Source of the DNA: Tridacna crocea
Taxonomy: Eukaryota > Mollusca > Bivalvia > Cardiida > Cardiidae
DNA: 64,000 bases
Direction of reading: 5' to 3'
Assembly (NCBI GenBank): GCA_943736015.1
Contig: OX031069.1
Location: forward strand, 44,302,728-44,366,727
The position numbers and the translations under genes are program-made. Shown here piece after piece: positions 43,424 to 63,554 of this stretch. Under the pieces are notes generated by a model. That model had not been told where the DNA came from. It made no database searches and saw only the letters and a program-made list of their open reading frames with translations. Each line of letters begins with the position of its first letter. The stretch's first letter is position 1.

Positions 43424-43640
43424 GTTGGTTAGAGCCGTTATTGGACCGTATTGCGGAAAACAAATCCATCGTTGTTTGCCCGGTTATTGACGTCATCGAA
43501 GACGACTCCTTTAAATATCAATATGGCAATGCCCGTTCAACAAGCATAGGGGGATTTGACTGGAATTTACAATTTAATTGGCACGCAATTCCAGAGTACG
43601 AACGTCAACGTAGAAATAATTTAGACTATCTTCCGGTCAG
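43424..43640 (+). CDS. GALNT: GALNT exon 3a, first of two alternative exons
   Basis: The acceptor is ttttatcctcgtag, with a branch-point-like TTTACTAAT about 20 nt upstream. The donor is gtactt. The exon holds 2 nt + 71 codons + 2 nt, 217 nt in all. It completes the Gly from exon 2 and encodes WLEPLLDRIAENKSIVVCPV, IDVIEDDSF, a variable loop, then GGFDWNLQFNW and LPV, with Arg split over the donor. These are the family blocks WLEPLL, VVCPIIDVI and GGF(N/D)W.L.F.W. In human GALNT2 the F-x-W of that last block lines the acceptor-peptide pocket (from memory), so this exon builds part of the substrate groove. The family's next block (SPTMAGGLF) would follow in an exon beyond the window. Compared with exon 3b it keeps the canonical Cys in VVCP and the GGF motif, so it is the more typical version. 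The remains of a TTAA-hairpin copy end about 40 bp before the acceptor. Confidence 0.95.
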
Positions 43641-43777
43641 GTACTTGACAGTTTGATCTCTCCACCCATCCTTTTTAAAAGTCACCATTGTTTTTTTTTC
43701 TGAAAAACTAATACATGTATTGCTTTTATTAACAGACTGTTTGATTGATTTTTCTTTCTGGTGTTTTTCTGGATCTG

Positions 43778-43984
43778 TTAACTCTTTCCTAGACAACAAA
43801 ATTTTAGACTTGTTCAAATTGAAAGTAATTGAAACAAATTACTGGTGATTCAAATGGCAGAATGTGTCCATGGTAGAAGAGAAAACATGGTGGAAAAAGA
43901 ATTAAGCATTTTCTCCTTTTCCACAATGCTTTCGAAAGGTGTACTTCTCGGGGTCATTAAAACTAAGGATTTTATGGCAAAGGG
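43778..43984 (-). mobile_element. TTAA-hairpin copy, decayed
   Basis: TTAACTCTTTCCTAGACAAC start, left arm lost (gaattaagcattttctcc), right end ttttatggcaaaggg. Confidence 0.7.
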
Positions 43985-44048
43985 AAAACTTTTTATCAGT
44001 AAAATGCAGACTTTTTCAATTACGATGCATTTGTAAGTAAAATTTGTA

Positions 44049-44205
44049 TGTGGATCAATGATGCAATTTATCTTTGATGCAATAATGAACAGTGTGGGGA
44101 AATGAGAAAATGCTGGTTACCAGCATCGACTCCTTTGTCAGCAGTGTTTTTGTCAAAAGGCTACTTCTTTTGGGTCGTTCAAACTCAGGATTGTGTGATA
44201 TACAA
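44049..44205 (-). mobile_element. TTAA-hairpin partial copy
   Basis: Core GCTGGTTACCAGC in a decayed stem; right part 'gggtcgttcaaactcaggat' and tgtgtgata. Confidence 0.68.
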
Positions 44206-44324
44206 ATTTTTATGCTCCCTGAAGGCCAAGCGTATAGTCGCTGCTTGGTCTGTCATCCATCAGTCTCTATTTCTGTCCATCTGTCTGTCCTTTAATCCAA
44301 AGCCACTTCTCCACAACATGGGAC

Positions 44325-44390
44325 CAAATTTGTTCTCTGCAAATGCTTCCAATTCGAAAAAGTCTAAAATTTGTCATTTGGTAACGGGTA
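44325..44390 (+). mobile_element. TTAA-hairpin right-end fragment
   Basis: 'ttctctgcaaatgcttccaa' to gtcatttggtaacggGTAA. Confidence 0.62.
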
Positions 44391-44656
44391 ACAGATTCCC
44401 TTGTCGTATCAGATATGTTCATAAGAAGTGATACATGTAATAATAGATTTTCTACTGTGCTGTTTTCTAAGAAAACACGAACATAATGTCATAGCCATTC
44501 CATCACCTTTATTGTCAGACAATAATGTTAAACATCTTTCTGATGTTTGTGTCATTAATGTTGAGATTTACTTCGACTTTGGCTAACTTGGGTCAACTGT
44601 TCATCATACAAAGGGGAACCCTTTCCAGAAAAGCAACCCTCGTCAAAGAGAAATCT

Positions 44657-44881
44657 TTAACTCTTTACCACACAATCCCGACTTTGAACAACCCTATGAA
44701 AAAAACTTTCAGAACATTGTAAGAAAAGGAGAAAATGCTGGAAGCCAGCATTTTCTCTTTTTCACACAATGTTTTCTACCCTTCCCAAATCAATTTCAAT
44801 TTTTCAGGCACATCAGTTTCGTCATCTTCAAATGCTTTCTATTTGGACTGGTCTATAAATTTGCCCTAGGTACAGAGTTGA
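44657..44881 (+). mobile_element. TTAA-hairpin copy, type A
   Basis: TTAACTCTTTACCACACAA start, core GCTGGAAGCCAGC (symmetrical), right end ctaggtacagagTTGA. Confidence 0.88.
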
Positions 44882-45438
44882 ATTATTATCACAGTTATGT
44901 CCCTTTTCTTACTTAGAATTTCCACCAAAAAAGCAACCACAACTGAGTAAAACAAGTGGTACCCTGGCATAAATCTTCAAATCAACAACAGGTTATGCCC
45001 AATTCTTATTCAGAAAACTTCCTGCTTTGGGAATATTATAATAGACAAATACATATAATACCAGACTGAATTGTGGTAGCATTGATGCATACAGATAGTC
45101 CATATCACAAAAGATCGAATCATTGAATGAGTGTAATAAATTGATCCTGGAAGGTTAATCTTTGACATTCATGAAAGCTGGTTTAGCCAAAGATCAAATT
45201 GATCCGTAGTTTTAAAAAAGAAATTATGGTATTTTGTTTCGTGCTGTTGAATTGATGGTCTTATTAGACTGTATGTGACAACAAATAGCTGCGATTGATG
45301 GGTATTACCTGTTGTCTGTTGGATGGTTACAGAAGATGAAAAGGGTACAGCTTACCACATATTGGCACCAACATGCACTGCTCTTGTAGTAAGGTCTCAT
45401 TACCTCTTGAAACAATCTTGCGGCAATTTTTAGTTCTT
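44882..45438. other. Intronic stretch, nothing recognised
   Basis: No exon signals and no repeat that I recognise. Confidence 0.4.
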
Positions 45439-45648
45439 TTAATCCTTTACCAAACAACAACCTGGACGAAGAGGCTTTTTGAAAATAGAATGGGAAAAGG
45501 AAAAAGAGCTGGTAACCAATATTTTCTGTTTCCAAAATCTTTCCTACCCCATCAGTGAAAAAATTCATTAATTAAGTTACATTTAAATATGTTGTTTTCA
45601 AATGCTTTCATTTTGGACAAATCTACATTTTTCTCATTTGGCATTATC
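45439..45648 (+). mobile_element. TTAA-hairpin copy, decayed
   Basis: TTAATCCTTTACCAAACAAC start, core GCTGGTAACCAAT, 'caaatgctttcattttggac' and a right end without TTAA (catttggcattat). Confidence 0.75.
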
Positions 45649-45650
45649 CA

Positions 45651-45837
45651 ATTGAAAGGATTTGCTGTCAAACAACAAGAATTATTGTTCAAAGTATGAA
45701 ATTTGTCATCAGTCAGAAAACATTGTAGGATAAGGAGAAAATGCCGGTTACCAGCATTTTCTCCTTTTCCCATTTACGTTTTCATTTGCTGTCTACCTCA
45801 GGGTTGTATAAAGTTGAGACTTTGTGGTAAAGAAATA
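45651..45837 (-). mobile_element. TTAA-hairpin copy, left tip lost
   Basis: 'attgaaaggatttgctgtca', core GCCGGTTACCAGC, right end tttgtggtaaagaaata. Confidence 0.75.
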
Positions 45838-46147
45838 ATGGAATACAGATAATCTGTAAAACATAATGGTTTGATGCTGGTAGGTGCAACTTGAAGCGCA
45901 AATCTGCAAGAAACAGTTTAAACTTTCTTTTCCTGTGATGTTTTCAAATGCCATCTTTGGCAAGAAGGTTAAAAATTTAGATTGTATTCAAATTGATGAA
46001 CACATGAATTGAGCACTTTTCAGAAAGGATCGTCACAAAAAAACAAAATTGCAAATGATTGCAGCAATATTTCACATGTTTTTCTTTCAAAATGTTGTGG
46101 TTTAACCTGACATTGCCAGTTTTTGTCATCACATTTTACACATTTGT

Positions 46148-46378
46148 TTAAGCCATTACCACATAATCCTGAGTTTTAACGACCCTGTAAAAAGAAGGCT
46201 TTTGAAAACATCGTGGGAAAAGGAGAAAATGCTGGTAACCAGCATTTTCTCTTTTTCCCCACAGTGTTTTCTACCTGATCCAGAGCAAAAATGATCATTT
46301 CAGTTACATTTAATTTGTCGTCTGCATATCCGTTCAATTTGGACCAGTCTAAATGTTTGGTGTTTTGGAAAGAGTTGA
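46148..46378 (+). mobile_element. TTAA-hairpin copy
   Basis: TTAAGCCATTACCACATAA start, core GCTGGTAACCAGC, 'gatccagagcaaaaatgatc' interior, end tttggaaagagTTGA. Confidence 0.88.
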
Positions 46379-46409
46379 ATAAATCAGTGTTTACATTTTA
46401 TGAGAATAT

Positions 46410-46537
46410 TTGGTCCATTACAACATAACCCTAGACAACACAACCCAAACTTCAAGGATCTTGAAAAAAACAGACTTTAGAAAACAATTTATAAAGATAA
46501 AGGGGACCAGCATTTTCTATTTTCCCATATTGTTTAA
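46410..46537 (+). mobile_element. TTAA-hairpin remnant, decayed
   Basis: 'ttacaacataaccctagaca', 'tttagaaaacaatttataaag', 'accagcattttctattttcc' in order; ends at a TTAA shared with the next copy. Confidence 0.5.
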
Positions 46538-46975
46538 TCCTTTACCACGCAGTGATGACTTTTAACGACCCTAAGGAAGATGCCTTTTGAAAACATTGTG
46601 GGAAAAGAAGAAAATGCTAGTAACTAGCATTTTCTTCTTTGCCCACAATGTTTTCTGCCCTATCGAAGAAAATTTGTATCATCCACAGAGTTCCAGATAA
46701 GGGGAGTGATGGTATTCTAAATCCATTATTTCTGTTTGAAACCCTGTGTTGTGGGCACTCATTAGAAGTTTTTCGATGAGACAATTATAATGAGTACCCA
46801 CAACATAGGGTATAGTGGAGAATAATGAATAATTTTAGTTTTGAAATCAAAATCACTCCCTCTATCTGGAGCTCCGATTTCAGCCACTGATACATGTATT
46901 GACATTTTTGTCCGCAGAATTGCATTCAATTTGGGTAGGTCTAAAATTCTGCCAGGTAGGGTTAATAGGAATTTC
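46534..46975 (+). mobile_element. TTAA-hairpin copy, type D, split by a foldback element
   Basis: TTAATCCTTTACCACGCAG start, core GCTAGTAACTAGC, right part 'tttcagccactgatac', GTCCGCAGAATTGCATTCAA and GGGTTAA. An insert of about 187 bp lies between 'tgtatcatccac' and 'gatttcagcc'. Confidence 0.85.
46688..46874. mobile_element. Foldback element, ~187 bp
   Basis: gagttccagataaggggagtgat on the left pairs (in parts) with atcactccctctatctggagctc on the right; 'ccctgtgttgtgggcactca' pairs with 'tgagtacccacaacataggg'. The whole insert can form one long imperfect hairpin. Target duplication not clear. Confidence 0.75.
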
Positions 46976-47060
46976 ATCATTTGATACACAGTTGATTCCT
47001 TTGTCTACTGCGAATGCTTACAATATGCTTTGGTCTTAAATTTCATGGTTTGGTTAAGTT

Positions 47061-47209
47061 TAAATATTTTCATAAGATAATAAAATTTGATAGCATTTAC
47101 AAAATAATGACAAAATAACTTCAGCTCAAGTGATGTGTGTCGTTGCTGAAAAAAGTGAAAACATAGTGGGAAAAAAGAAAAAAATGGGGATTGCGTGGTA
47201 AAGATTTAA
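47061..47209 (-). mobile_element. TTAA-hairpin remnant, hairpin deleted
   Basis: 'tttgatagcatttacaaaat', 'acatagtgggaaaaaagaaa' then directly 'tggggattgcgtggtaaaga' and TTAA. Confidence 0.6.
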
Positions 47210-47432
47210 CCCTTTCCCAAACAATCCCTGGTTTTTACGGGTCAGGAATAGAAGCCTTTTGAAAAGATTTTGGGAAAAGGAGAAAATGCTGGTAACCAGC
47301 ATTTTCTCCTTTTCCCACAATGTTTTCTACCCTGTCATATAGAAAAATCATCTGTTTAGCAACTCTTATTGCAATCTGCAAAATGCTTTGAATTTGGCCT
47401 GGTCCAAAATTTGCCGTTTTGGAAAGGGTTAA
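47206..47432 (+). mobile_element. TTAA-hairpin copy, type B
   Basis: TTAACCCTTTCCCAAACAA to GCCGTTTTGGAAAGGGTTAA. Core GCTGGTAACCAGC; left stem changed to gattttggg. Confidence 0.92.
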
Positions 47433-47510
47433 GTCATGAGATGCTCTTTAGAAAGTTTCAAGAGGTTTTGATCTAATCTAACTGGCTCATCATTATATAC
47501 CAAATAATTG

Positions 47511-47715
47511 CTGGTGTGGTATCTTATAATGGTTGTGAGTGTGGTGTCCATGGTTGTGAGATAAAGCATTGGCCTCCTAACCAAAAGGTCCTGAGTTCGA
47601 TAATTGGGAGCAGGTATCAACTTTGGGATATTTCATTGGCCCACACATTAGGCATGAGTTCTGGTATAGTTCCCAGGAAGCAGAATGGGGAGAAATGGGT
47701 TTAAGTTGTAAGAAC
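47511..47715 (+). repeat. tRNA-derived SINE
   Basis: 'tggttgtgagataaagcattggcctcctaaccaaaaggtc' (in parts) reads like an anticodon arm and 'gagttcgataattgggagc' like a T arm with B box. A tail with 'ttctcaatcgatgtaaaac' follows. It resembles bivalve tRNA SINEs I know. Confidence 0.65.
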
Positions 47716-47760
47716 CTGTTTCTCAATCGATGTAAAACACATTTTGTTAAAACTAAACTC

Positions 47761-47905
47761 ATCAGCATTTCCTCCATCTCCTACATTGTTTTCTAGTCTT
47801 TCAATGACAAGTTTCATCTTGTGAGCCATATCTAATTTGTCATAACTTATGCAAATGCTTTCAAATCAGGCATGTCTAAATTTTTGTCTTTTGGTAAAGA
47901 TTTAA
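47761..47905 (+). mobile_element. TTAA-hairpin right half
   Basis: 'atcagcatttcctccatctc' right arm, type D interior 'cttgtgagccatatctaatt', right end cttttggtaaagaTTTAA. Confidence 0.75.
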
Positions 47906-47920
47906 CATATTGGTGTTCTT

Positions 47921-48095
47921 GACTCATTGCTTGCTTAAAATGTTGAGATTTCTCACTGCTTGCTTATTATATAATGATTTCTCACTGCTTGCTTGTAATG
48001 TGAGATTTCTCACTGCTTGCTTGTAATGTTTAGATTTCTCACTGCTTGCTTGTAATGTTTAGATTTCTCACTGCTTGCTTGTAATGTCTAGATTT
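47921..48095 (+). repeat. Minisatellite, ~29-bp unit, about six copies
   Basis: 'agatttctcactgcttgctt gtaatgttt' repeated; the last three units are almost identical, the first ones diverged. Confidence 0.92.
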
Positions 48096-48332
48096 AGATG
48101 TATTTGAAATAACAGCTTTATTTAGAAGTATTTGAAATAACTGCCTCTTACCAACCCTTTAACAACTTGTAGCATATTTTTAGCCAGTAGTCTGGCCAAT
48201 TTACAATACCATGCTTTTATCTTGTTGGAATGTAGGCCAAGATCAAACTGCACAGAAAGGGCAACCTGAGTTTGATCCTCACTCTCCACTTTTTCAATCA
48301 ATCTTTCAATCAAATGGTTACTGTCAGCTAAC

Positions 48333-48561
48333 TTAACCCATTACCACTCAATCCCTACTTTTGACGCCCCTGAGAAAGAAGCCTTTTGAAAACCCTGTGG
48401 GAAAAGGAGAAAATGCTGGTAACCAGCATTTTCTCCTTTTCCCACAGAGTTTTCTACCCTTCCCAGAACAAATTTCAATTTTTCAGTCACTTTTATTTTG
48501 TCGTCTGCAAACGCTTTCAATTTGGACCAGTCTAAATTTTTCTCGTGTGGTAAAGAGTTAA
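48333..48561 (+). mobile_element. TTAA-hairpin copy, type A, near-consensus
   Basis: 229 bp. TTAACCCATTACCACTCAA to CTCGTGTGGTAAAGAGTTAA. Core GCTGGTAACCAGC. Confidence 0.94.
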
Positions 48562-48726
48562 ACTAACAACCCCATGTTTTACTGACTGTGAAACAGAAGC
48601 CTTTGGAAAACATTGTGGGAAAAGGAGAAATGCTGGTTACCAGCATTTTCTCCTTTTCCCACTATGTTTTCTAAAGGCTTCTTTCTCAGGGTTGTCAAAA
48701 CTTGGCATAGTATGGTAAAGGGTTAA
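48558..48726. mobile_element. TTAA-hairpin hybrid with two left ends, 169 bp
   Basis: Left: aaccccatgttttactgac and gaaacagaagcctttggaaa. Right: 'ttttctaaaggcttctttct', 'cagggttgtcaaaacttggc', GTAAAGGGTTAA. Both sides are the same end inverted, so the whole copy is close to one palindrome. Confidence 0.85.
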
Positions 48727-48982
48727 ATGGATGAGTAACTTGTGTTTGTTGGAAGGAAAAAAAAGCAATATTTTTGTTGAAGTTTTATCAGCATAACCAA
48801 ATAAGGGTTTTGTTGAGAATGCATTAGACTGTTTACTTAGCTGATAGGATATTTCCAAGATATAACAATGGTTTGTCTGTGTCAATATTGGCGAAACATT
48901 ATAGAAGCCCCGCTGTTCGTCTCACGGAGACTGGATTAGGGACAGAAAGTAAGAATGTAAGAAAAGATGAAACAGTGGATAT

Positions 48983-49201
48983 GAACTTGTTATCAAACAA
49001 GAAAATTTTAGACTTGTTAAATTTGATAGTGTTTGCTGATGACAATTTAAATGGGGCTCAAATGATAGAGATTGTCTTTGATATGGTAGAAAACACCATG
49101 GGAAAAGGAGAAAATGCTGGTTACCAGCATTTTCTCCTATTCCCTCAGTGTTTTCAAAAGACCTCTAAGTCGTTAAAACTTGTGTATGGTAAAGGGTTAA
49201 G
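48983..49201 (-). mobile_element. TTAA-hairpin copy, left tip altered
   Basis: 'cttgttatcaaacaagaaaa' start, core GCTGGTTACCAGC, right end tgtatggtaaaGGGTTAA. Confidence 0.85.
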
Positions 49202-49326
49202 TGAGAGAGAGGGACAGAGGGGACTAACAATTTATGGAATGGAGCCTTGAGAGGTATCAAAAGATTTTAGTCCACAAGTATGATTAAATAAAGAGTGATA
49301 AATGCATGTGAGATTCTGTTTATCAC

Positions 49327-49554
49327 TTAACCCATTACCACACAATCCCTACTTTTGACGCCCCTGAGAAAGAACCCTTAGAAAACATTGTGGGAAAAGG
49401 AGAAAATGCTGGTAACCAGCATTTTCTCCTTTTCCCACAATGTTTTCTACCCTTCACAAAACAAATTTCAAATGTTCAGTCACCTTTTTTTTGTCGTCTG
49501 CAAATGCTTTCTATTTGGACCAGTCTAAAATATTGTCGTTTGGTAATGGGTTAA
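49327..49554 (+). mobile_element. TTAA-hairpin copy, type A, near-consensus
   Basis: TTAACCCATTACCACACAA to GTCGTTTGGTAATGGGTTAA. Perfect core GCTGGTAACCAGC; 228 bp. Confidence 0.94.
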
Positions 49555-49688
49555 AAACCAATGACAGACAAATTACTGTAGTATATTTTGGCTACATAAC
49601 CACTGCTTCGTCCATGTTTACAGATGTACATGTAGGTTGCTTCCAAAATGCAAGTGCACAAGAAAGATAACTCTGATTTAGGCATCAA

Positions 49689-49895
49689 CTTTACCCTTTA
49701 CCAAACGACAAAATTTCAGGCTGGTCAAAATTCAAAGCATTTGCAGACGACAAAATAAACATTGCTCTAAAAATGAAATTTGTTTTGGGAAGGGTAGAAA
49801 ACATTCCAGGAAAAGGTTTCTCCTTTTCCCACAATGTTTTCTAAAGGCTTTTTCTTCAAGGGCGTCAAAACTTGGGAATGTGTGGTGAAGAGTAA
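49689..49895 (-). mobile_element. TTAA-hairpin copy, palindrome centre deleted
   Basis: TTTACCCTTTACCAAACGAC start. The arms meet directly as 'ccaggaaaaggtttctccttttcccac', so the innermost ~30 bp are gone. Right end gtgtggtgaagagtaa. Confidence 0.85.
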
Positions 49896-50680
49896 TGAGA
49901 AGGATGAAATAATTGATAGGAAGAATAATTCAAAATATGTCCACAATTCTAACATTTATGACTTTTGCTGTGGTATCAAGCAAGAAAATGCTTGTTTATA
50001 TTACGTCTTTCCAACAACGTTATAATTTTCAATCAAATTGGCAGTGTTACAAATTTTTGCATGATGCTGTGGTTGGTTTATAACCAGCTTTATGCTCTCG
50101 CAATTGCCTCTTTTTTGTTTCTGCTTTTCACTTTGTTGAAAAGCAGTATCAGGAAATGTTTATGAAAATGTTAGGTTTCCAAATTGCACCAGAAAAGATT
50201 CATTCTCTTCTATGTTGGTTTGCTATGGTATGAATCAAGGGGTATCAATAATCGGTAGCAAGGCTTCATCCTAATGTTGGTTTCAGAATTGTTCATGTAA
50301 ATATCTTCGGTTTACTTGGAAAACCTTGTATCTACAGTTTATTACAAGCTGTATTTACGTGGTTTTTGAAGTAAATCTACGATATGCTAGCAGCATACTG
50401 CAGGGAAAACATGTCAACATTTTAGACCAATCATAACTGTTTCCATCTATTCACTCCTTAATTAAAACCAAAAAGTAGGTGAAAAGCTAGCACATTCAGC
50501 TAGATTGAAAAAGGAGGATTTTTTTCCCCTATATAGACGAAATCTGTGTTTCAAAATACATGCAGTCTGGGCAGTTGACAGCTGCTATGTTGTCTGCTAC
50601 AATGTAGAAAGGAATTTCAAAGGAACAAACGATTAGTCCTTATATTGAAGACTAATTGTCTGTCAAAAAAATCCATCGCT
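49896..50680. other. Intronic stretch, nothing recognised
   Basis: AT-rich sequence with no exon or element end that I can support. Confidence 0.4.
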
Positions 50681-50681
50681 T

Positions 50682-51236
50682 ACCCTTTACCCGATGATTA
50701 TTATTTTTAAACGATCCCCAAGAAAGAAAAGCATTCAATGGCACGGCGGGGAATCACGTGACACAACAACAACAACAATGACCGTTATTTGAAAAAATTG
50801 CCCAACTTCAGGTAAGAAAATCTTCAATAATTCCGTTAATACGTGACCGATTGGAATTTGGTTTGAACCAGAGAAGGCGGAAGGACTCCGGGGATTTGCT
50901 TGATGTGTTAGATTTTTTAAACAACACCTGATAAAAAAGTTATTGACGAGCAAACAAATTATCCAGGGTAAAAAATTTGTTTGCTCGTCAATAACTTTTT
51001 TATCAGGTGTTGTTTAAAAAATCTAACACATCAAGCAAATCCCTGGAGTCCTTCCGCCTTCTCTGCTTCAAACCAAATTCCAATCGGTCATGTATTAACG
51101 GAATTATTGAAGATTTTCTTACCTGAAGTCGGGGAATTTTTTCAAATAACGGTCATTGTTGTTGTTGTTGTGTCACGTGATTCCCCGGCGTGAATGGGTA
51201 ACCAGCATTTCCTCTTCTTCCTTGTTTGCATTTTAT
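50682..51236 (+). mobile_element. TTAA-hairpin copy split by a 451-bp hairpin element
   Basis: Left: taccctttacccgatgatta, 'taaacgatccccaagaaaga'. Right: 'aatgggtaaccagcatttcc' (the right arm). Between them lies the element at 50742-51192. Confidence 0.72.
50742..51192. mobile_element. 451-bp foldback transposon with 219-bp arms, 5-bp TSD
   Basis: Left arm 50742-50960 and right arm 50974-51192 are almost perfect reverse complements (a few differences) around a 13-bp spacer (atccagggtaaaa). Ends CACGGCGGGGAATCACGTGA and tcacgtgattccccggcgtg. Flanks AATGG on both sides (50737-50741, 51193-51197). A 5-bp duplication with CAC...GTG ends fits Transib or a related superfamily, but I cannot confirm that. 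The near-identity of arms suggests a recent insertion. Confidence 0.9.
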
Positions 51237-51243
51237 CTTGCAA

Positions 51244-51464
51244 CTTTTTACCCAACAACAAGAGTTTGGACTGCACCAAATTGAAAGGGTTTGCGAACAC
51301 CACATGTCGCTTAATTGGTGATTTCTGGCTCTGATAGAGTAGAAAACATTGTGGGAAATGGAGAAAATGCTGGTTACCAGCATTTTCTCCATTTCTTGCA
51401 ATGTTTTCAAAAGGCCCTTTCAGTTGGGTTGTTAATAAACAGAATTGTGTGGTAAAGAGTTAGA
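51244..51464 (-). mobile_element. TTAA-hairpin copy
   Basis: 'ctttttacccaacaacaaga' start, core GCTGGTTACCAGC, stem CATTGTGGGAAATGGAG with matching 'ctccatttcttgcaatg', right end TGTGTGGTAAAGAGTTA. Confidence 0.82.
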
Positions 51465-51485
51465 AAACAATTTTCATTATTTTTA

Positions 51486-51600
51486 GTAACTTACGACTAT
51501 GTCTTCAGACTTGTGACTATGTCTTCAGACTTATGACTATGTCTTCAGACGCTTTCAATTTGGACTAGTCTGAAATTCTGTCAGCTTGTAAAGTTGTTAA
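51486..51600 (+). mobile_element. TTAA-hairpin right end containing a 20-bp tandem repeat
   Basis: Three to four copies of 'ttgtgactatgtcttcagac' (51491-51550) then 'gctttcaatttggactagtc' and cagcttgtaaagttgTTAA. The repeat arose from the GTCGTCTGC-like block. Confidence 0.78.
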
Positions 51601-51655
51601 GGTCTGTACCACATAAACCTGAGTTTTAACTACCCTTGGGGAATGGCCTTTTGAT
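51597..51655 (+). mobile_element. TTAA-hairpin left-end fragment
   Basis: 'accacataaacctgagtttt' and 'aactacccttggggaatggc' only. Confidence 0.55.
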
Positions 51656-51661
51656 TCACAA

Positions 51662-51881: not shown

Positions 51882-51939
51882 AAGCCTCAGGGGAAAAAGA
51901 GATGATCTTCTAACTTTCACAAACAACTGTCATCATTTA

Positions 51940-53072: not shown

Positions 53073-53301
53073 ATAACCTTTTACCAGACAACAAAATTAA
53101 AGACTAGTCCATATTGGAAGCATTTGCAAACAACAAATTCACCATGATCGAAATAAAATCCATACATGAAAGTGTAGAAAATATTGTGGGAATAAGGAGA
53201 AAATGTTCAGGTTTACAGCATTTTGTACTGTTCCCCACAATGTCTTCAAAAAACTTCATCCACAGGTGCATTAAATTCAAAATTGTCTGGTAAAGGGTTA
53301 A
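53073..53301 (-). mobile_element. TTAA-hairpin copy
   Basis: ATAACCTTTTACCAGACAAC start, decayed hairpin (tgttcaggtttacagca), right end TCTGGTAAAGGGTTAA. Confidence 0.78.
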
Positions 53302-53527
53302 ACCCATTACCACACAATCCCTACTTTTGACGCCCCTGAGAAAGAAGCCTTTTGAAAACACTGTGGGAAAAGGAGAAAATGCTGGTAACCAGCATTTTTT
53401 CCTTTTCTCACAGTGTTTTCTACCCTTCCCAGAACAAATATCAATTTTTCAGTCACCTTTATTTTGTCGTCTGCAAATGCTTTCAATTTGGACCAGTCTA
53501 AAATTTTCTCGTGTGGTAAAGGGTTAA
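53298..53527 (+). mobile_element. TTAA-hairpin copy, type A, near-consensus
   Basis: TTAAACCCATTACCACACAA to GTGTGGTAAAGGGTTAA. Stem CACTGTGG, core GCTGGTAACCAGC. A C-run (53549-53562) follows. Confidence 0.93.
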
Positions 53528-54735: not shown

Positions 54736-54737
54736 GC

Positions 54738-54965: not shown

Positions 54966-54971
54966 AGCTAT

Positions 54972-55200: not shown

Positions 55201-55345
55201 TAACTGAGAAAATTTAGGCTTATGGAAACAAATGTGGGAAAAGGAAAAAAAAAATGGTAGTAAGTAGCTATTTCTTTTTTCCCCACATGCTGTCTACCCA
55301 ATGAAAGATAGACTGCTTAATCAGAGTTTTAAGTGTTGGTCATTA
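55197..55345. mobile_element. TTAA-hairpin remnant, decayed
   Basis: Shared TTAA, 'caaatgtgggaaaaggaaaa', 'gtagtaagtagctatttctt' and 'ccccacatgctgtctaccca' remain. Confidence 0.5.
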
Positions 55346-55574
55346 TAGGCAAAGAAAAGGAATTCTTAAACTCGATAAGAAGCTGTCAAGTCTCTCAGGT
55401 CTTTTGTTTAGTTTTTACCTGTTTTAAAATTCAGTTTTGCAACCGTTGTTATGTTAATGATTACAACATACATCAAACCAACTAACAAACAAACTCGAGG
55501 GATTTTCTCTAATTTATCATGCACCGATGTAACATGGGAAGAAAAAGATGCACAATTTATAATTAATTGCAGTA

Positions 55575-55803
55575 TTAACTCTTTACCAAGCAACAAAATA
55601 ATACACCGTTCCAAATTGTAAGCATTTGTAGACAACAAGATAATTGTGACTGAAAAGTTGAAATTTGGTTTGGGAAGGGTAGAAAACATTGTGGTAAAAG
55701 GAGAAAATGCTGGTAACCAGCATTTTCTCCTTTTCCCACAATGTTTTCAAAAGGCTTCTTTCTCGGTGTCGTTAAAAGTCGGGATTGTCTGGTAATGGGT
55801 TAA
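55575..55803 (-). mobile_element. TTAA-hairpin copy, full length
   Basis: 229 bp. TTAACTCTTTACCAAGCAAC to TCTGGTAATGGGTTAA. The centre base is A (GGTAACC) though the rest is in - orientation, so the loop was inverted or mutated. Confidence 0.92.
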
Positions 55804-55877
55804 ACCAATCAATCCAAAAAACTGCACCAGATTCCCCTTTATTTAAATCCGAAGCCAAAGCATTGTTTAAGCACATT

Positions 55878-55986
55878 TTTCCAGTGTTTTCATTATTTTC
55901 AAAGACACATCACATCAGACGCTCCACACTGAATTTGTTGTCTGCAATTGCTTTCAAAATGGACAAGTCTAAAAGTAAAGAGTTAA
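55878..55986 (+). mobile_element. TTAA-hairpin right-end fragment
   Basis: 'ttttccagtgttttcattat', 'gttgtctgcaattgctttca', 'gtctaaaagtaaagagTTAA'. Confidence 0.65.
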
Positions 55987-56502
55987 ATAATGCAAATTAA
56001 ACTTGCCTGCATTGTCACCAATGAATTGTTTACTAAAGCCTGTTTCACATCAGCCTTACGACAGCCGTACAGGAACATTTTTTGACAAATTGCGAGACTT
56101 CACGTGGAGTCTGCAAGACGACCTTACGAATTTGCAGTGCTGTAGATGTTTTAAGCTGGTTTTTGAAAATGCTCATTTTGTTTGCAATTTCTTTGCAATT
56201 TTTTTGAGTTTGCGCGGCAACTGTACGGTTGCCACTTGGCAGCCGTACTGTTGCCTTGAGACCATCGCACATCAATCGTGCGGTTTTATACTTGCGTTTG
56301 TCTTACGAAGACTGCACGATGATAGCACAAACATCTTGCGGCTGTCTTGAGAATGCCTTGCGTTAGGCGAAACTCTGTCTGAAGACTACTGCGGAAGGTA
56401 CGAAAAACGTTTAGATTCACAAATGTCTTGAGAAAAGTTAGCGCCATCCCTCCTCTAAAAATGTTGGTAGGTCTTGTTCATCATCAGTCGCTTTTGAGAT
56501 TT

Positions 56503-56597
56503 CAGGAATAGAAAGCCATGTCTCGGAAACAAAGATCTAAGAAGGGAAAGGGGAAGGCTACGGTTGCTGAACTTCCACTGAACCTGAGAACACCAAG
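56503..56597 (+). other. Exon-like block inside the Harbinger-like element
   Basis: After an acceptor-like tttgagatttcag an ATG (56518) opens MSRKQRSKKGKGKATVAELP and LNLRTPR, then a donor-like AG|gtacc. Very basic and short. It could be the first exon of an element-borne or captured gene, or chance. I do not recognise the protein. Confidence 0.25.
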
Positions 56598-56661
56598 GTA
56601 CCATCAACTCAGGATTCAGATATAGAAGGCACATGCTTGTACAAAAGTGACAAATATGCCT

Positions 56662-56890
56662 TTAACTCTTTACCATACGACAAAAATTTAGACTGGTTCA
56701 AATTGAAAGCATTTGCAGATGACAAAATAAAGGTGACTAAAAAATTGACATTTGTTCTGGGAAGGGTAGAAAACACTGTGGGAAAAGGAGAAAATGCTGG
56801 TTACCAGCATTTTCTCCTTTTCCTACAGTGTTTTCAAACGTCTTCTTTCACAGGGGCGTCAAAAGTAGGGATTGTGTGGTAATGGGTTAA
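56662..56890 (-). mobile_element. TTAA-hairpin copy, type A, nested in the Harbinger-like element
   Basis: 229 bp. TTAACTCTTTACCATACGAC to GTGTGGTAATGGGTTAA. Stem CACTGTGG/CTACAGTG, core GCTGGTTACCAGC. Confidence 0.93.
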
Positions 56891-57467
56891 CATAAAATTG
56901 CATCATCCCGTTCTTCATCCGCGAGTATCCTGTTCATAGCTACAGTACGCAACCTATGTGGTTGGATAGCTGAAGTTAACTCTGTGAAGGCCTTCTGCAG
57001 AATGAGGATGTTGCTGCATACCATTGTGTCTACATGTATATGTATATATCCAAACCTGGACAAGAGGAGATCATTAGTCCTCCTTATGGTGATCGCACAA
57101 ACTCCGTATAGCTGTCTTGCAAATTTGTGCTTGCTTTGCGTTGGTCTTACGAAGCTTTGCAAATTCTTACGAATAGGTAGCTATTGTGTTTTCAGCTGAG
57201 ATCGTATGACGAAAAAATCGCACGGCTGATGTGAAACAGGCTTAAGTGACGATAGTGGGCCATTAACTTTTGCATGCTAAAATTACACATGCTGTGATAA
57301 AGAGACAATGGTGACTTCTGAAAATGTGTTTATGAAAAACAAGTGTAGCAATAATTCGGTAAAAATTAGATTTTGCAGCTTCAACAAACCTGATAATAAT
57401 CGTTTATTAAATCCTTGGGAATCATTAAAGCCTTGACTAGCAAGATTTCCAGTTTGAAATTACATTT

Positions 57468-57617
57468 TTGACCCTTTATCAAACAACCATGTTTTTCATG
57501 ACCCTGAAGAAGAGGACTTCTGAAAACACAGTGAAAGAAGGAGAAAATGATGGAAAACAGCATTTTCTCCTTTTCCCACAATGTTTTCTACCAATACAAA
57601 GTCAAATCCTGTCCTTT
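57468..57617 (+). mobile_element. TTAA-hairpin copy without right part
   Basis: TTGACCCTTTATCAAACAAC start, core GATGGAAAACAGC, right arm to 'ttttctaccaatac', then directly the next copy. Confidence 0.75.
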
Positions 57618-57844
57618 TACTCTTTACCACATGAGAACATTTTCGACTGGTCCAAATTGAAAGCATTTGCAGATGACAAAATAAAGGTGACTGAAAAATT
57701 AAAATTTGGTTTGGGAAGGGTAAAAAACACTGTGGAAAAATGAGAAAAGGCTGGTTACCAGCATTTTCTCCTTTTCCCACAGTGTTTTCCAAGGGCTGCT
57801 TTCTCAGGGTCGTTAAAAGTCGGGATTGTATGGTATGGAGTTAA
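57616..57844 (-). mobile_element. TTAA-hairpin copy, type A
   Basis: TTTACTCTTTACCACATGAG to GTATGGTATGGAGTTAA. Core GCTGGTTACCAGC; 229 bp. Confidence 0.9.
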
Positions 57845-57940
57845 CCAACATTTGTTGTCTGTAAACAACCAACATTTGTTGTCTATTAACGCTTTCAATT
57901 TGGACTGGTCCATGTTTTTTTTCATCTGGTAAAGAGATAA
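57841..57940 (+). mobile_element. TTAA-hairpin right part with a small duplication
   Basis: 'caaccaacatttgttgtct' occurs twice, then 'cgctttcaatttggactggt' and CATCTGGTAAAGAGATAA. Confidence 0.7.
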
Positions 57941-58165
57941 CCCTTTACAAAATTTCAGAATTTTGGACTTGTCCAATTTAAAAGCACTTGCAGACAACAA
58001 AATTAAAGTAATTCAAAATTTGAACTTTGTTTCCAGTAGGGTAGTAAACATTCTGGGAAAAGGAGAAAATGCTGGTTACCAGCATTTTCTCCTTTTCCCA
58101 TAATCTTTTCAAAAGGCCTCCATCTCTGGATTGTAAAAACCACAGATTGTTTGGTAAAGGGTTAA
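57937..58165 (-). mobile_element. TTAA-hairpin copy, type B-like
   Basis: 229 bp. ATAACCCTTTACAAAATTTC to TTGTTTGGTAAAGGGTTAA. Core GCTGGTTACCAGC. Confidence 0.9.
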
Positions 58166-58205
58166 GGCAATTTCTGACATTAGTCTGCCCATACTCATGA
58201 ACTCT

Positions 58206-58441
58206 TAACTCTTCACCACACAACAAAATTCTAGACCTGTACAAATTGAAAGCATTTGCAGATGACAAAATAAACATGACTCAAAAATTGAAGCTTGACT
58301 TAAGAAGAGCAGAAAACATTGTGGGAAAAGGAGAAAATGCTGGTTACCAGCATTTTCTCCTTTTCCCTCAATGTTTTCAGAAGGCTTCTTCCTCTGCAGA
58401 TATGGGTCATAAAAACCAGGGATTGTTTGGTAAAGGGTTAA
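58206..58441 (-). mobile_element. TTAA-hairpin copy
   Basis: TTAACTCTTCACCACACAAC to TTGTTTGGTAAAGGGTTAA: one end is type A, the other type B, so this copy mixes two end types. Confidence 0.9.
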
Positions 58442-58656
58442 GAAAATGGAAATGAAATAGAATGCATGTGTCTTTATAAAAATCTTAGGGCCTCTGCACA
58501 TTTCTAGCTCGGGTGTTTTTGAAGAAAACATTGAGATATTTTCATCGCTCTGGCATCATCTGCAGAACGTGCAAAAATTTTGATTATTTCAAAACTTTGA
58601 TTTTTAATGCCATTACTGCAGCTACTTACCTCAAACTTGGACAAACTGTCCACTAT

Positions 58657-58865
58657 TTAACTCTTTACCAAACAACAAATTTTAGACTCTTCGAAACTGA
58701 AAGAGTTTGCCAACGACAATTTCAAATTTGATATAAATGACATAAAGTTCTCCAAATAGTAGAAAGCACTGTGGGAAAAGGAGCAATTTGTCCTTCTTCC
58801 ACAGTGTTTTCAAAAGACTTGTACTGCAGACCGTAAAAATAAGGGCTTGTTTGGGAAAGGGTTAA
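58657..58865 (-). mobile_element. TTAA-hairpin copy, type E, palindrome centre deleted
   Basis: TTAACTCTTTACCAAACAAC start, type E interior 'gagtttgccaacgacaattt', CACTGTGG/CCACAGTG stem with only 'gagcaatttgtc' left of the core, right end GTTTGGGAAAGGGTTAA. Confidence 0.88.
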
Positions 58866-59091
58866 TTCTTTACCACACCATCCCGACTTTTAACGACCCC
58901 CAAAGGGAAAGCTTTTGAAAACATAATAGGAAAAGAAGAAAATGCTGGTAACCATCATTTTCTTCTTTACCCACAATGTTTTCTACCCTTTCCAAAACTA
59001 ATTTCAATTTCTGATTTACATTTGATTTTTTGTCTGCAAAATGCTTTCAAATTGAACCAGTCTAAAATTTTATCATTTGGTAAAGAGTTAT
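58862..59091 (+). mobile_element. TTAA-hairpin copy, type A
   Basis: TTAATTCTTTACCACACCAT start, core GCTGGTAACCATC, right end catttggtaaagagTTATAA. Confidence 0.88.
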
Positions 59092-59132
59092 AATGTGTAG
59101 AAATGTGTTTGAATGAATAAATAAGCAATATT

Positions 59133-59384
59133 CATGCGCGGATCCAGATATCTTTCTCAAGAGGGGTCCCACCGAAAACGCACTCGTCTTATTATAATTA
59201 TGATACTTTGATTTCCGGATTTCAGTGGATGTAAGCCGTTTACAAGAAAGTTGACGTTTCCAGTTCTAAACATAAGGAGGTCTCCATATATCAAACCAGT
59301 ACCATTTCACAAATCCGATAACCAAAATTTTGCCAAAATTCCAGGGGGGTCCACACCCTGATCCCCCCTCTGGATCCGCCCATG
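59133..59384. mobile_element. MITE with CATGCGCGGATCCAG ends
   Basis: 252 bp. CATGCGCGGATCCAGAT on the left and CTCTGGATCCGCCCATG on the right, flanked by ATATT on each side (59128-59132, 59385-59389). The 'ggggggtccacaccctgatc' interior is a pattern I know from several marine invertebrates. Superfamily not assigned. Confidence 0.78.
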
Positions 59385-59389
59385 ATATT

Positions 59390-60274
59390 TATAGCCCAAA
59401 AGCATGAAAAGAAGTTTCAGATTTGTTATTTGATATGGATTTTGGTCGGGGGGGGGGGGAATTACATCAAAATTATATCAGGTCAAAATTGTAAACAATG
59501 GGGGAGCCTATCAGTATAGTCATTTACAAAACCTCATCTAAAAATAGAAGACTGGACTACTTCTTGTTTCAACACGGGAAATGGCGTACAGGTCTACTTG
59601 TAGGATCATGGGTATTCACCTTCTTTCTGCCATCTAAAATCGCTAAATATTAATGTGTTCATACAAAATTTAAATTTCCAATGCCTTTAAAATCATTCCA
59701 CTGCACTCGATATAAAATTTTGACATCCTTGAATAAATTGTTGTTGTACTCTTGTAACATAGATTGTTGTGGCAGTAGACAAAGATTGTTGGGGCAGTTA
59801 CAGACCTACGTAGTGTATCTTGGCTCCATTTTCTTGTAATTTACAAGGCAAAAGTCATACATAGTCACATGACAAGCATAATGTGATATCCTGAACTGAT
59901 CAGTGGATAGGAGCCAAGTTCAAAGTTGCATTTTCTATCCATAATAATGTATGCAAAATCGCAGCTGCCAGGTTTGATATTTCGTTGTCATGAAGCTACA
60001 AGTATGAATATAGTAAGATAAAATAATTCAAAGCAATTGGTTATATTTGGCTTAAAATGAGTGGTTTCTTTAAAAGGGGAACCATTGTACTCTCAAGGGC
60101 AGATAACTACCCAAGTATGTTTGACATATTGATGCCTAATATCATTTTTATGTTACTTAAATTTTTTGCTGAAAATCAGGCAATTGCTGCCAAGGGTTCA
60201 CACCTGCATGCCATACTCTTGTTTTGGTCTAATTTCACATCACTCAATATTGCTTGATATGGATGGAGGAAGGG
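59390..60274. other. Intronic stretch, nothing recognised
   Basis: A G-run near 59449-59459. No exon or element end supported. Confidence 0.4.
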
Positions 60275-60460
60275 AGGGGTCCCTGCACAACTCAGTGGTA
60301 AAGTGCAGAACTTGAAACCTTGAGGCATCTGATTTAAGCCGAGCGAAAAGTAACAGGGAGCATCACTTGGCAAGACACTTCAGAGCCCTAGGCTCAGAAC
60401 TGGTGAAATCCAGGACATATATTTAAGCTGTTGCCATGATACAACTGAAATAACGTTACA
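60275..60460 (+). repeat. SINE, tRNA-like head and tail
   Basis: 'cacaactcagtggtaaagtg' is A-box-like. The tail 'cacttggcaagacacttcag ... gatacaactgaaataacg' recurs in inverse at 9521-9645. Confidence 0.62.
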
Positions 60461-60562
60461 TGCAGTATCAAAAAACACTCAATCAATGTTTATGTATGTG
60501 GGACAGCAGCCATTTCCTCAGAAAAAAAAAATATGTTAGCAATGCTATGTGTAAAGGGAGCT

Positions 60563-60790
60563 TTAAACTCTTTACCACACAAAAATATTTTAGGCTAGTC
60601 CAAATTGGAGCATTTGCAGATGTCACCATAAATGGGACTCGAAAAATGAAATATGTATTAGGATTAAAGAAAACACTGTGGGAAAAGGAGAAAATGCTGG
60701 TTTCCAGCATTTTCTTCTTTTCCCACAGTGTTTTCAAAAGGCTTTTTTCACGGAGTCATGAAAAGTCGGGATTATGTGGTAAAGGGTTAA
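60563..60790 (-). mobile_element. TTAA-hairpin copy, type A
   Basis: TTAAACTCTTTACCACACAA to TTATGTGGTAAAGGGTTAA. Stem CACTGTGG, core GCTGGTTTCCAGC. First unit of a tandem duplication. Confidence 0.9.
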
Positions 60791-61314
60791 TGCATCTGCA
60801 AAAGGGTTGACTCCGGTGGGCCTGAATAGCTGGCATAAGCTAGCCCTAGTTCAGACTCTTGCATATGGTAAATTGTCTGCTTGTCCAAGGACTAGTTTAC
60901 CTTGTGGTTCAATGGGTTGTTGCAGAAAATGGATTTAACTCTTTACCACACGACAAAATTTTAGACCGGTCAAAATTGAAAACATTTGCAGACAACAAAA
61001 TACATAAACAAAATGTAAAAAGTGAAATTTTTTTCCTGCATGGTAGAAAACATTGTGGGAAAAGGAGAAAATGCTGTTTACAAGCTTTTTCTTTTTTTCT
61101 CACAATGTTTTCTAAAGGTTTCTTTCTCAGGGTCATTAAAAGTCAGGATTGTGTGGTAAAGGGTTAGTGCATCTGCAAAAGGTTTGACTCCAGTGGGCCT
61201 GAACAGTTGGCATAAGCTAGCCCGAGTCCAGAATCTTGCTTTATGTAAATTGTCTGCTTGTCCCAGGACTAGCATACCCTCATGGTTCAATTGGTTGTTG
61301 CAGAAAATTGATTT
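60789..61314. repeat. Direct repeats of ~148 bp around a TTAA-hairpin copy
   Basis: 'gcatctgcaaaagggttgac ... ggttgttgcagaaaatggattta' at 60791-60936 recurs at 61169-61314 with about 15 differences. Each is preceded by a TTAA-hairpin copy. Confidence 0.88.
60935..61166 (-). mobile_element. TTAA-hairpin copy, type A
   Basis: TTAACTCTTTACCACACGAC to GTGTGGTAAAGGGTTAG. Core GCTGTTTACAAGC; the right arm is changed (tttttctttttttctcac). Confidence 0.88.
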
Positions 61315-61792
61315 AATGAATGCATAATAATATGACGACTTTTTTGGTTTTATTATTATGGAGATGCATTAAACCACTCTTTTGCTAGAGTGGGGCTCAT
61401 GTGTAAAGTGACCCATCATGCAAAAAGGGACCTTCTGCAAACTGGGAAAAGTGTCAACCCTGGTCAGACTGAGCCAATTGTGCAGGCTAACCAGGGTTGA
61501 CACTTTTCGTTTTAATGACATTTTCTGTATGAAAAGTGGTTATTGTACCTTGTTATCCAATCATTTTTGAATTATCAACTTAAATTGACCTGCACTATCA
61601 TTCATCTGTTTTCATCTAATTGATGTACAGAATTCCCAGACAGTCCCTTTTTCTCACATAGGTCACAAATATTTCTAGTTGACACGTCATCAAGCTGTTG
61701 CTGCAATAACAATTATAACAGAATTAGGGTACGTTGAACCCTGCATAAAAAATTATTTCACAGTTAAGCTGCCTCAACATGGCTTCTTTGGA
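61315..61792. other. Intronic stretch with one hairpin module
   Basis: 'aaaagtgtcaaccctggtca' and 'taaccagggttgacactttt' form an inverted repeat around 'gactgagccaattgtgcagg' (61447-61510). Nothing else recognised. Confidence 0.6.
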
Positions 61793-61853
61793 CTAATGCT
61801 TTATCAAACAGCAAAAATTTTGGATTTTTCCTGGTTGTAAGCATTTGTCTTAA
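61793..61853 (-). mobile_element. TTAA-hairpin left-end fragment
   Basis: 'ctttatcaaacagcaaaaat', 'gttgtaagcatttgtc', then TTAA of the next copy. Confidence 0.6.
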
Positions 61854-62081
61854 CCCATTACCAAACGACAAAATTTTAGGCTTGTCCAAGTTGAAAGCAT
61901 TTGCAGATGACAAAAGTAAAGTGACCAAGAATTGGAAATTTGTTTTGTGAAGGGTAGAAAACATTGTGGGAAAAGGAGAAAATGCTGGTTACCAGCATTT
62001 TCTCCTTTTCCCACAATGTTTTCCAAAGGTTTTCTTTCTCAGGGGTGTCAAAAGTAGGGATTTTGTGGTATTATGGGTTAA
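61850..62081 (-). mobile_element. TTAA-hairpin copy, type A
   Basis: TTAACCCATTACCAAACGAC to TTTTGTGGTATTATGGGTTAA. Perfect core GCTGGTTACCAGC. Confidence 0.92.
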
Positions 62082-62109
62082 ATGATTGAAATGTGTCTTC
62101 CAGAGGGGT

Positions 62110-62379
62110 TTAACCCTTTACCACACAATCCTGACTTTTAATGACCCAGAGAAAGAAGCCTTTGGAGAACACTGGAAAAAAGGAGAAAATGCTAGTTACC
62201 AGCATTTTTTAAAAAAATTCTAGGAGAAATTGCTGGTAACCAGCATTTCTCCTTTTCCAACAACTTTTTCTACCTTTCCCCAAGACAAATTTCGATTTTA
62301 GAGCAATACTTATGTTGTTGCCTGCAAATGCTTTCAATTTAGACTGGTCTACAACTTTGTCCTTAGGTAAAAAGTTTAA
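62110..62379 (+). mobile_element. TTAA-hairpin copy with two loops
   Basis: TTAACCCTTTACCACACAA start. First loop GCTAGTTACCAGC, then 'tttttaaaaaaattctag', then a second loop TTGCTGGTAACCAGC. Right end ttaggtaaaaagTTTAA. Confidence 0.85.
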
Positions 62380-62533
62380 CATTATTGTTAGAAAAATAAG
62401 TCCGACCAGCAACATTTTCTCCTTTTCCCACATTGTTTTAGTCACATTTAATATGTGCTTTGCAAAATTTGTTGCTTAAAATGAAGACATAGTCTAAAAC
62501 TTTGTAACGCTGTAAAATTGTTTTGCATTAAGT
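62376..62533 (+). mobile_element. TTAA-hairpin remnant, decayed
   Basis: Shared TTAA; 'gaccagcaacattttctcct', 'cccacattgttttagtcaca' and 'agtctaaaactttgtaacgc' remain. Confidence 0.55.
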
Positions 62534-62536
62534 TGC

Positions 62537-62764
62537 TTAACTCTTTACTACACAATCCCGACTTTTAACGACCCTGAGGAAGAAGGTGTGCGGTAAAAAT
62601 GTCAGAGGTAAAAATGCCATAGGTAAAAATGTCATAGGTAAAAATGTCAGAGTCAAAGTGGTAAATATGCCATAGGTAATAATGTCATAGGTAAAAATGT
62701 CAGAGGTACAAGGTATATATTAATTTGGACCAGTCTAATATTGTGCAGTTTGGTAAAGAGTTAA
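62537..62764 (+). mobile_element. TTAA-hairpin copy, hairpin replaced by a minisatellite
   Basis: TTAACTCTTTACTACACAATC and 'aacgaccctgaggaagaagg' on the left, 'taatttggaccagtctaata' and TTTGGTAAAGAGTTAA on the right. The palindrome is absent and a short tandem array fills the space. Confidence 0.88.
62591..62710 (+). repeat. Minisatellite, 15-16-bp unit, about eight copies
   Basis: Unit 'aggtaaaaatgtcat' with variants (gtcag, gccat). It lies exactly where a TTAA-hairpin copy should carry its palindrome. Confidence 0.92.
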
Positions 62765-62875
62765 ATGAATGATAGATGCTTGATATAACTTTTATAATAT
62801 TTATGTCCTTACTTTCTACTGATGTTTCATGATATGTTTTCGAATTATAACTGAATAAAACCAATAAGATATTTT

Positions 62876-63000
62876 TTCCCAACAATGTTTTCTATCCTTC
62901 ACAAAACAAATTTCAGATTTTCAGTCACTTTTATTTTGTTGTCTGCAAATACTTTCGATTCGGACAAACCTAAAATTTTATTGTTTGGTAATGAGATAAT
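62876..63000 (+). mobile_element. TTAA-hairpin right half
   Basis: 'ttcccaacaatgttttctat', 'cagtcacttttattttgttg', right end gtttggtaatgagaTAA. Confidence 0.75.
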
Positions 63001-63229
63001 TTAACTCTTTACCGAACAACACCTGGTTTTTACGGGTCTGGAATAGTGGCCTTTTGAAAACATTGTGGGAAAAGGAGAAAATGCTGGTAACCAGCATTTT
63101 CTCCTTTTCCCACAATGTTTTCTACCCTATCATAGACAGAAATCATCTTTTCAGCAAGAGTTGAATTGTCGTCTGCAAATGCTTTCAATTTGGTCTAGTC
63201 CAAAACTTTGTCGTTTGGGAAAGGGTTAA
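63001..63229 (+). mobile_element. TTAA-hairpin copy, type B, 112 bp before exon 3b
   Basis: 229 bp. TTAACTCTTTACCGAACAAC start and GTCGTTTGGGAAAGGGTTAA end. Perfect stem and core GCTGGTAACCAGC. Confidence 0.93.
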
Positions 63230-63343
63230 TTAATGGTTAGTTGCACTCCTTAGTGCATGAAACAGTAACAAAATTAATGATACTAACCGTAGTGGATGAA
63301 CATAGGCCTCGACATTGACTCAAGAAAGACGTTAAATTCTCAG

Positions 63344-63554
63344 GTTGGCTGGAACCGCTGTTGGATAGGATTGCTGGAGATACTACCCGAGTTGTGACCC
63401 CCATTATTGACCGTATTTCTGATGAAACCCTGAATTATATCAGTTTAAAAGGGATTGGTATAGGGAATTTCAATTGGGGCTTACAGTTTACATGGAGATA
63501 TATTCCCAATATAAAACGTTACGATCCTTCTCTGAGTAAAACGTCCCCTGTCAG
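63344..63554 (+). CDS. GALNT: GALNT exon 3b, second of two alternative exons
   Basis: A divergent second copy of exon 3a lies 19.7 kb downstream. The acceptor is aaattctcag and the donor gttagt. It has 2 nt + 69 codons + 2 nt, 211 nt in all, with the same phases as 3a. It encodes WLEPLLDRIAGDTTRVVTPI, IDRISDETLNY, a loop two residues shorter, then GNFNWGLQFTW and SPV with a split Arg. By eye about 30 of 71 positions match exon 3a, with the first ten codons identical in protein. The frame is open throughout and both splice sites are intact, so it looks functional. The near-invariant Cys of VVCP is Thr here and GGF is GNF, while the F-x-W pair is kept. The acceptor has a weak, purine-rich tract (caagaaagacg), which suggests regulated use. 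The alternative, a separate tandem gene, is unlikely because no other GALNT exons lie between the two. Confidence 0.92.

Follow-up and report, generated by a model that had tools for sequence, protein, structure and literature searches.

A putative pair of mutually exclusive exons for the acceptor-groove wall in a PGANT9-like GALNT gene of Tridacna crocea

Can a single glycosyltransferase gene offer two versions of the wall that holds its acceptor peptide? The question is raised by a stretch of 64,000 nucleotides (nt) from Tridacna crocea (contig OX031069.1, positions 44,302,728 to 44,366,727 of the forward strand; hereafter the window), in which two similar exons, 3a and 3b, encode the same segment of the catalytic domain of a polypeptide GalNAc-transferase (GALNT). 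Our answer, to which we assign a probability of roughly 0.7, is that 3a and 3b arose by tandem duplication and are used in a mutually exclusive manner in a PGANT9-like GALNT gene, with the splicing deduced from exon anatomy. Because the two exons are homologous, equivalent in frame and arranged in tandem, because no catalytic exon was found between them and because inclusion of both leads to a stop codon, their arrangement is best explained by mutually exclusive use. The exons on which this reading is built are the following:

16874-17040, plus strand: exon "1", start of the GALNT catalytic domain (tblastn with the GalNAc-T1 segment, E 3e-13)
41231-41395, plus strand: exon 2, shared, with the DSH motif (tblastn with PGANT9, E 9e-20)
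43424-43640, plus strand: exon 3a, 217 nt, version a of the acceptor-groove segment (best match in the PDB PGANT9, E 3.6e-26)
63344-63554, plus strand: exon 3b, 211 nt, version b of the same segment (best match in the PDB PGANT9, E 1.2e-16)

All four exons are bordered by AG and GT. The exon at 16874-17040, which is flanked by an AG acceptor and a GTAAGT donor and joins exon 2 in frame, is probably the exon 1 of the original prediction, a note on this DNA that had proposed the exon pair. Since it has an acceptor site and opens with CKTQAY without a protein start, it does not appear to be the first exon of the gene, which should extend further upstream. Exon 2 ends in phase 1 just past DSHCECAV, and 3a and 3b each complete the same Gly codon of exon 2 and continue with WLEPLLDRIA. 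Both are entered in phase 1 and left in phase 2, both have open frames, and the lengths of both are 1 mod 3. In all these particulars, namely coordinates, lengths, phases, AG and GT borders, the shared GWLEPLLDRIA and open frames, the original prediction was accurate. The features of GALNT enzymes are present as a GT2-type catalytic core and the DXH motif, which reads DSH in exon 2, and the joined sequences of exon 2 with 3a and of exon 2 with 3b each match the Pfam model Glycos_transf_2 (E 4.3e-21 and 1.5e-19). We take the GALNT family to be equivalent to CAZy family GT27.

The reading frame itself separates the two exons, as had been predicted. If 3a is spliced to 3b, the translation runs ...YLPV-RLAGTAVG and then reaches a stop, which is codon nine when the split junction codon is counted as the first, whereas skipping of both exons shifts the frame, by arithmetic on their lengths. 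The stop concerned is:

63366-63368, plus strand: premature stop codon TAG, in frame upon double inclusion of 3a and 3b (joined translation ...YLPVRLAGTAVG, then stop)

The reading frame together with nonsense-mediated decay would suffice to leave only transcripts with a single version of exon 3 productive. When donor sites were scored with textbook consensus frequencies, 26 of the 3481 GT sites in the window scored as high as the 3b donor or higher (the 3b donor itself included), and 215 of 3481 did so for the 3a donor. The stop on double inclusion could also be read as the very function of 3b, which would then be a poison exon whose inclusion after 3a lowers the enzyme level via nonsense-mediated decay. 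A poison exon, however, would be under no requirement to maintain matching phases, a GALNT reading frame or 20 of the 22 residues invariant in the family, and we consider this explanation extremely improbable.

Whether 3a and 3b belong to the same gene depends on what lies around them. As an independent test of exon content, tblastn with the corresponding segments of PGANT9, T1 and T2 returned the same four exons and, among the matches listed, nothing else below E 0.36. In searches of all six frames of the window, a profile of exon 2 gave one good segment (E 4.8e-34, next E 2.2) and a profile of exon 3 gave two (E 1e-37 and 4.8e-32, next E 0.16); the profiles include exon 2 and exons 3a and 3b, respectively, so that the recovery of these exons is by construction. 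Between 3a and 3b, we detected neither a second exon 2 nor a subsequent catalytic exon, and no further exon of the searched catalytic segments was found after 3b within the window (tblastn matches listed and six-frame profiles, with the lectin part outside the search). Had a whole gene been copied in tandem, exons 4 onward and another exon 2 would be expected in this interval; the order exon 2, 3a and 3b, in which no intervening catalytic exon was found, is that of a tandem pair of alternative exons. It is this absence of any other catalytic-domain exon between 3a and 3b that leads us to infer a single GALNT gene for the four plus-strand exons. Exon 4 should lie beyond window position 64000: in a six-frame profile search of the window for the next catalytic segment, the best of four matches reached only E 4.5.

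Two tandem GALNT genes, with 3a in one and 3b in the other and each complete with separate copies of exons 1-2 and of exon 4 onward, would be compatible with the fact that the gene runs out of the window and exon 4 of neither copy is seen, and with the slightly greater similarity of 3b to Drosophila PGANT9 (34 identities in 64 aligned columns) than to 3a (30). Nevertheless, we judge such an arrangement highly unlikely, considering that neither a second exon 2 nor a subsequent catalytic exon was found in the interval 43640-63344 among the tblastn matches listed or by the six-frame profiles, that exon 1 was found only once among the matches listed (tblastn with the T1 segment), that 3b starts right after the DSH motif and needs an upstream exon 2 to yield an enzyme, and that the window contains no N. 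The original prediction had named a 3b with its own copy of exons 1-2 as a finding that would overturn it, and these searches found no second exon 2 in the window.

The homology of the two exons is evident from each of them separately. Used alone as query against the PDB, 3a matched 14 and 3b 15 distinct GALNT sequences, with the best E-values listed above and with entries 6e4q/6e4r as top match in both cases, bearing out the claim that they encode alternative versions of the same catalytic-domain segment. These entries represent Drosophila PGANT9A and PGANT9B (PMC6115407; this and the other papers are cited here from the available portions of their text). PGANT9 was the best among the solved sequences matched, which comprised T1, T2, T4, T7, T9, T10, T12 and two unnumbered enzymes besides. 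Between 3a and 3b, 32 of 70 aligned residues are identical, 14 of the 32 being encoded by different codons, and in the first 11 codons there are six silent differences and no residue change. Nonsynonymous and synonymous divergence (dN and dS) were 0.62 and 2.33 by the NG86 method and 0.61 and 1.75 by LWL85, where dS is saturated and dN/dS is only a guide. At 22 positions that are invariant in five solved GALNTs (PGANT9, T1, T2, T4 and T12), 3a keeps all 22 residues and 3b keeps 20.

Such conservation is not expected from neutral drift. When 3a was evolved neutrally in 20,000 simulated copies to the whole of the observed divergence, none reached the observed protein identity, and none kept 20 of the 22 invariant residues at full or at half divergence (0 of 20,000 each), in simulations that took 3a as the ancestor and did not include insertions or deletions. 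At a quarter of the divergence, 43 of 20,000 copies kept 20 of 22, two of them with frame and splice sites intact as well, and the corresponding numbers at an eighth were 2145 and 427. Because neutral copies so rarely keep these residues, 3b is a selected coding exon or has lost its function only recently, and plain neutral debris is rejected by the simulation unless the loss was recent. Searches of viral contigs gave 10 pattern matches for exon 3b and 23 for the alignment of exons 2 and 3, none of them a relative.

The segment that differs between 3a and 3b contributes to the site where the acceptor peptide is bound. Eight residues line the peptide groove of GalNAc-T2, namely Val255, Leu270, Phe280, Trp282, Tyr284, Phe361, His365 and Phe377; Phe280 and Trp282 are aromatics of the acceptor groove, and exchange of Phe361 or Trp282 for Ala almost eliminated activity (PMC4432651). 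In our alignment, the start of exon 3 corresponds to T2 Trp233, and five of the eight groove residues, from Val255 to Tyr284, lie in the part that it encodes. Both 3a and 3b have the equivalents of Phe280 and Trp282, and hence would retain the aromatics holding Pro-x-Pro. At the position of Val255, 3a has Val like PGANT9, T1, T2 and T12, T4 has Thr, and 3b has Arg. The position aligned with Tyr284, which is placed with an uncertainty of about one residue, as is that aligned with T2 residue 270, is occupied by His in 3a and by Arg in 3b. Overall, the segment carries a net charge of -4 in 3a and of +1 in 3b, a difference of five charges toward the positive. From the Arg substitutions and the charge shift in 3b, together with the precedents of PGANT9A/B and PGANT5A/B, we predict a preference for acidic acceptors in the 3b enzyme and for neutral or basic acceptors in the 3a enzyme.

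In the mechanism that we propose, exon 2, which encodes the DSH motif of the donor and metal site, would be spliced to either 3a or 3b, and the chosen exon 3 would then be spliced to a shared exon 4 beyond position 64000. The product would be an enzyme with unchanged donor site, presumably unchanged downstream parts and one of two walls of the acceptor-peptide groove, the swapped wall corresponding to GalNAc-T2 residues Trp233 to about 300. Both forms would be expected to be active, and the choice between 3a and 3b is predicted to be tissue-specific.

Several observations weigh against an exclusive pair with switched specificity. The tract preceding the 3b acceptor is only 37% pyrimidine, compared to 63-74% in the other three exons, and the distance between 3a and 3b, 19.7 kb, is in our judgement long for a tandem pair. 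In 3b, two family-invariant residues are replaced (Gly by Asn and Arg by Asp), and at 34 positions common to at least four of the five relatives 3b keeps 25 residues and 3a 31. The T1 segment also has a net charge of +1, so that the charge of 3b alone lies within the family range, and the placement of the two uncertain groove positions belongs on this side as well. The weak 3b acceptor would suit regulated use, but it would suit decay equally well. Decay is the most probable of the rival explanations: 3b might be a relic of an exon copy or the remnant of a tandem gene, unspliced or rarely spliced, with 3a as constitutive exon. Apart from the acceptor tract, the loss of two of 22 invariant residues, the change at nine of 34 well-conserved positions and the longest branch in the tree (see below) would be in line with a relic, and if an eighth of the divergence postdated the loss of function, the 427 of 20,000 neutral copies mentioned above would still look intact. 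On the other hand, the frame is open, AG and GT are intact, the donor is strong, the length is right modulo 3, 20 of 22 invariant residues are kept, and the first 11 codons show six silent and no replacement differences. A relic is thus compatible only with recent loss, and we consider it unlikely. The exon anatomy fits mutually exclusive use best, and from this anatomy the mechanism is likely to be right; the part of the original prediction that stands as directly observed is the anatomy, while exclusivity itself is deduced from it.

Comparison with Drosophila PGANT9 hints at an old origin of the pair. Over the 64 columns used above, 3a and PGANT9 share 40 identities, and 3b was nearer to PGANT9 than to 3a in 90% of 10,000 column bootstraps. 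The maximum-likelihood tree joins 3b with PGANT9 with a support of 81 (73 columns, seven sequences, long 3b branch). With the same 73 columns and seven sequences, a clade of 3a and 3b was rejected by the AU test (p 0.037), whereas the KH (0.096) and SH (0.098) tests did not reject it. One conceivable and rather unlikely scenario is that the two groove exons predate the split between the mollusc and arthropod lineages, that the ancestral PGANT9-type enzyme already had two grooves, and that Drosophila pgant9 retained the b lineage alone, its charge switch arising in the lectin domain instead. If the pair did predate this split, a splice-controlled charge switch would have arisen in three parts of the family, namely groove, gating loop and lectin loop.

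Exchange of exons in GALNT genes has precedents. In Drosophila pgant9, which represents the closest solved relative of both 3a and 3b, the alternative exons 8A and 8B switch charge and substrate choice, but there the variable part consists of about 30 residues of the alpha subunit of the lectin domain and not of the catalytic domain (PMC6115407). Drosophila pgant5 resembles the gene described here in that a stretch of the catalytic domain is replaced by alternative splicing: PGANT5A and PGANT5B differ in residues 398-457, PGANT5A is the predominant form in salivary glands, and the isoforms differ in charge-based substrate choice (PMC12776162). The swap in pgant5 comprises a flexible gating loop and a helix-turn-helix, downstream of the segment swapped here, and pgant5 is an orthologue of GalNAc-T1, whereas the gene in the window is PGANT9-like. 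The contrast drawn in the original prediction, that known variants concern the lectin domain and those at this locus the catalytic domain, is therefore out of date.

Homologous exons are also swapped in GALNT genes of vertebrates, flies and nematodes, where GALNT13, Pgant5 and gly-5 are among the families with tandem duplicated exon substitutions; their occurrence across vertebrates, arthropods and nematodes was read as convergent by the authors (PMC9741552). The swaps in GALNT13 and gly-5 may involve the same segment as here; in the available text of that study, human, fly and worm are covered, and molluscs are not. If the GALNT13 or the gly-5 event swaps the same segment, the present pair is only a further member of this group. 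Because of these events and of the catalytic-domain variation in pgant5, the novelty attributed to the locus in the original prediction was too strong. Among mollusc enzymes, the ppGalNAcT of Biomphalaria glabrata carries Phe308 and Trp310, which correspond to T2 Phe280 and Trp282, in the segment encoded by exon 3, but it was studied as a single form, and the main text of the report contains neither "splic-" nor "exon" (PMC6994419). Among the literature matches listed, in titles and openings of abstracts, we found no report of a swapped groove segment or of an exon pair in a mollusc GALNT gene. A groove-segment swap in a PGANT9-like gene, if spliced as proposed here, appears to be new, while GALNT exon swaps as such are already established.

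The surroundings of the exons are rich in repeats. An element of approximately 230 nt, bounded by TTAA and built around a palindromic core of some 70 nt, accounts for 119 blocks and 24,333 nt, or 38% of the window (255 profile matches at E 1e-3 or better in both orientations, merged into blocks). Judging from its TTAA ends, we presume that it resembles a piggyBac-type MITE family. Copies referred to below are:

41489-41716, plus strand: element copy 94 nt downstream of exon 2, a candidate partner for RNA pairing (a lead only)
53301-53527, minus strand: element copy given as an example
63002-63229, minus strand: element copy 115 nt upstream of 3b (a lead only)

Both 3a and 3b, unlike exons 1 and 2, have an element no more than 115 nt before them and another no more than 138 nt after them; 4.8% of 24,670 element-free placements were flanked in this way by chance, with thresholds that had been chosen after seeing the data. 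The regions 62990-63229 and 41489-41728 are 78% complementary, and for the copy downstream of exon 2, pairing with the copy before 3b has an energy of -249.5 kcal/mol, compared to -62.2, -70.0 and -76.2 kcal/mol for three shuffles. Among the eight element copies tried, however, it pairs better with those at 53301 (-363.0), 48334 (-349.2), 52072 (-289.1) and 46150 (-267.0). With no preference for the copy next to 3b, specific exclusivity by RNA looping of the elements is unsupported. An inverted repeat with arms of 219 nt (50742-50960 and 50974-51192), 97% complementary and separated by a spacer of 13 nt, is located between 3a and 3b. The window further contains five tandem arrays:

3435-4119: tandem array, unit 166 nt
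17544-17807: tandem array, unit 133 nt
26664-27083: tandem array, unit 164 nt
29419-29645: tandem array, unit 114 nt
47923-48095: tandem array, unit 29 nt

The arrays with units of 166 and 164 nt may be related, since both consensus units contain CTTTAAAATTCTTCT. Rfam gave no match in the window at gathering thresholds, and a Pfam search with 10 of the 18 stop-to-stop frames of at least 110 residues gave weak matches in four of the ten (E 0.0082-0.075), none of which was above the curated cut-off.

The question of how GALNT isoenzymes select their substrates is still open, and a swap restricted to the groove would separate the effects of the groove from those of the lectin domain. An enzyme with alternative groove walls, in which the donor site and presumably the lectin domain are held constant, would amount to a natural experiment on this point. 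As a mollusc gene, it would add a lineage to those with homologous exon swaps in GALNT genes. It would also be relevant to the speculated small number of GALNT isoforms in molluscs (PMC6994419), because variety could come from splicing.

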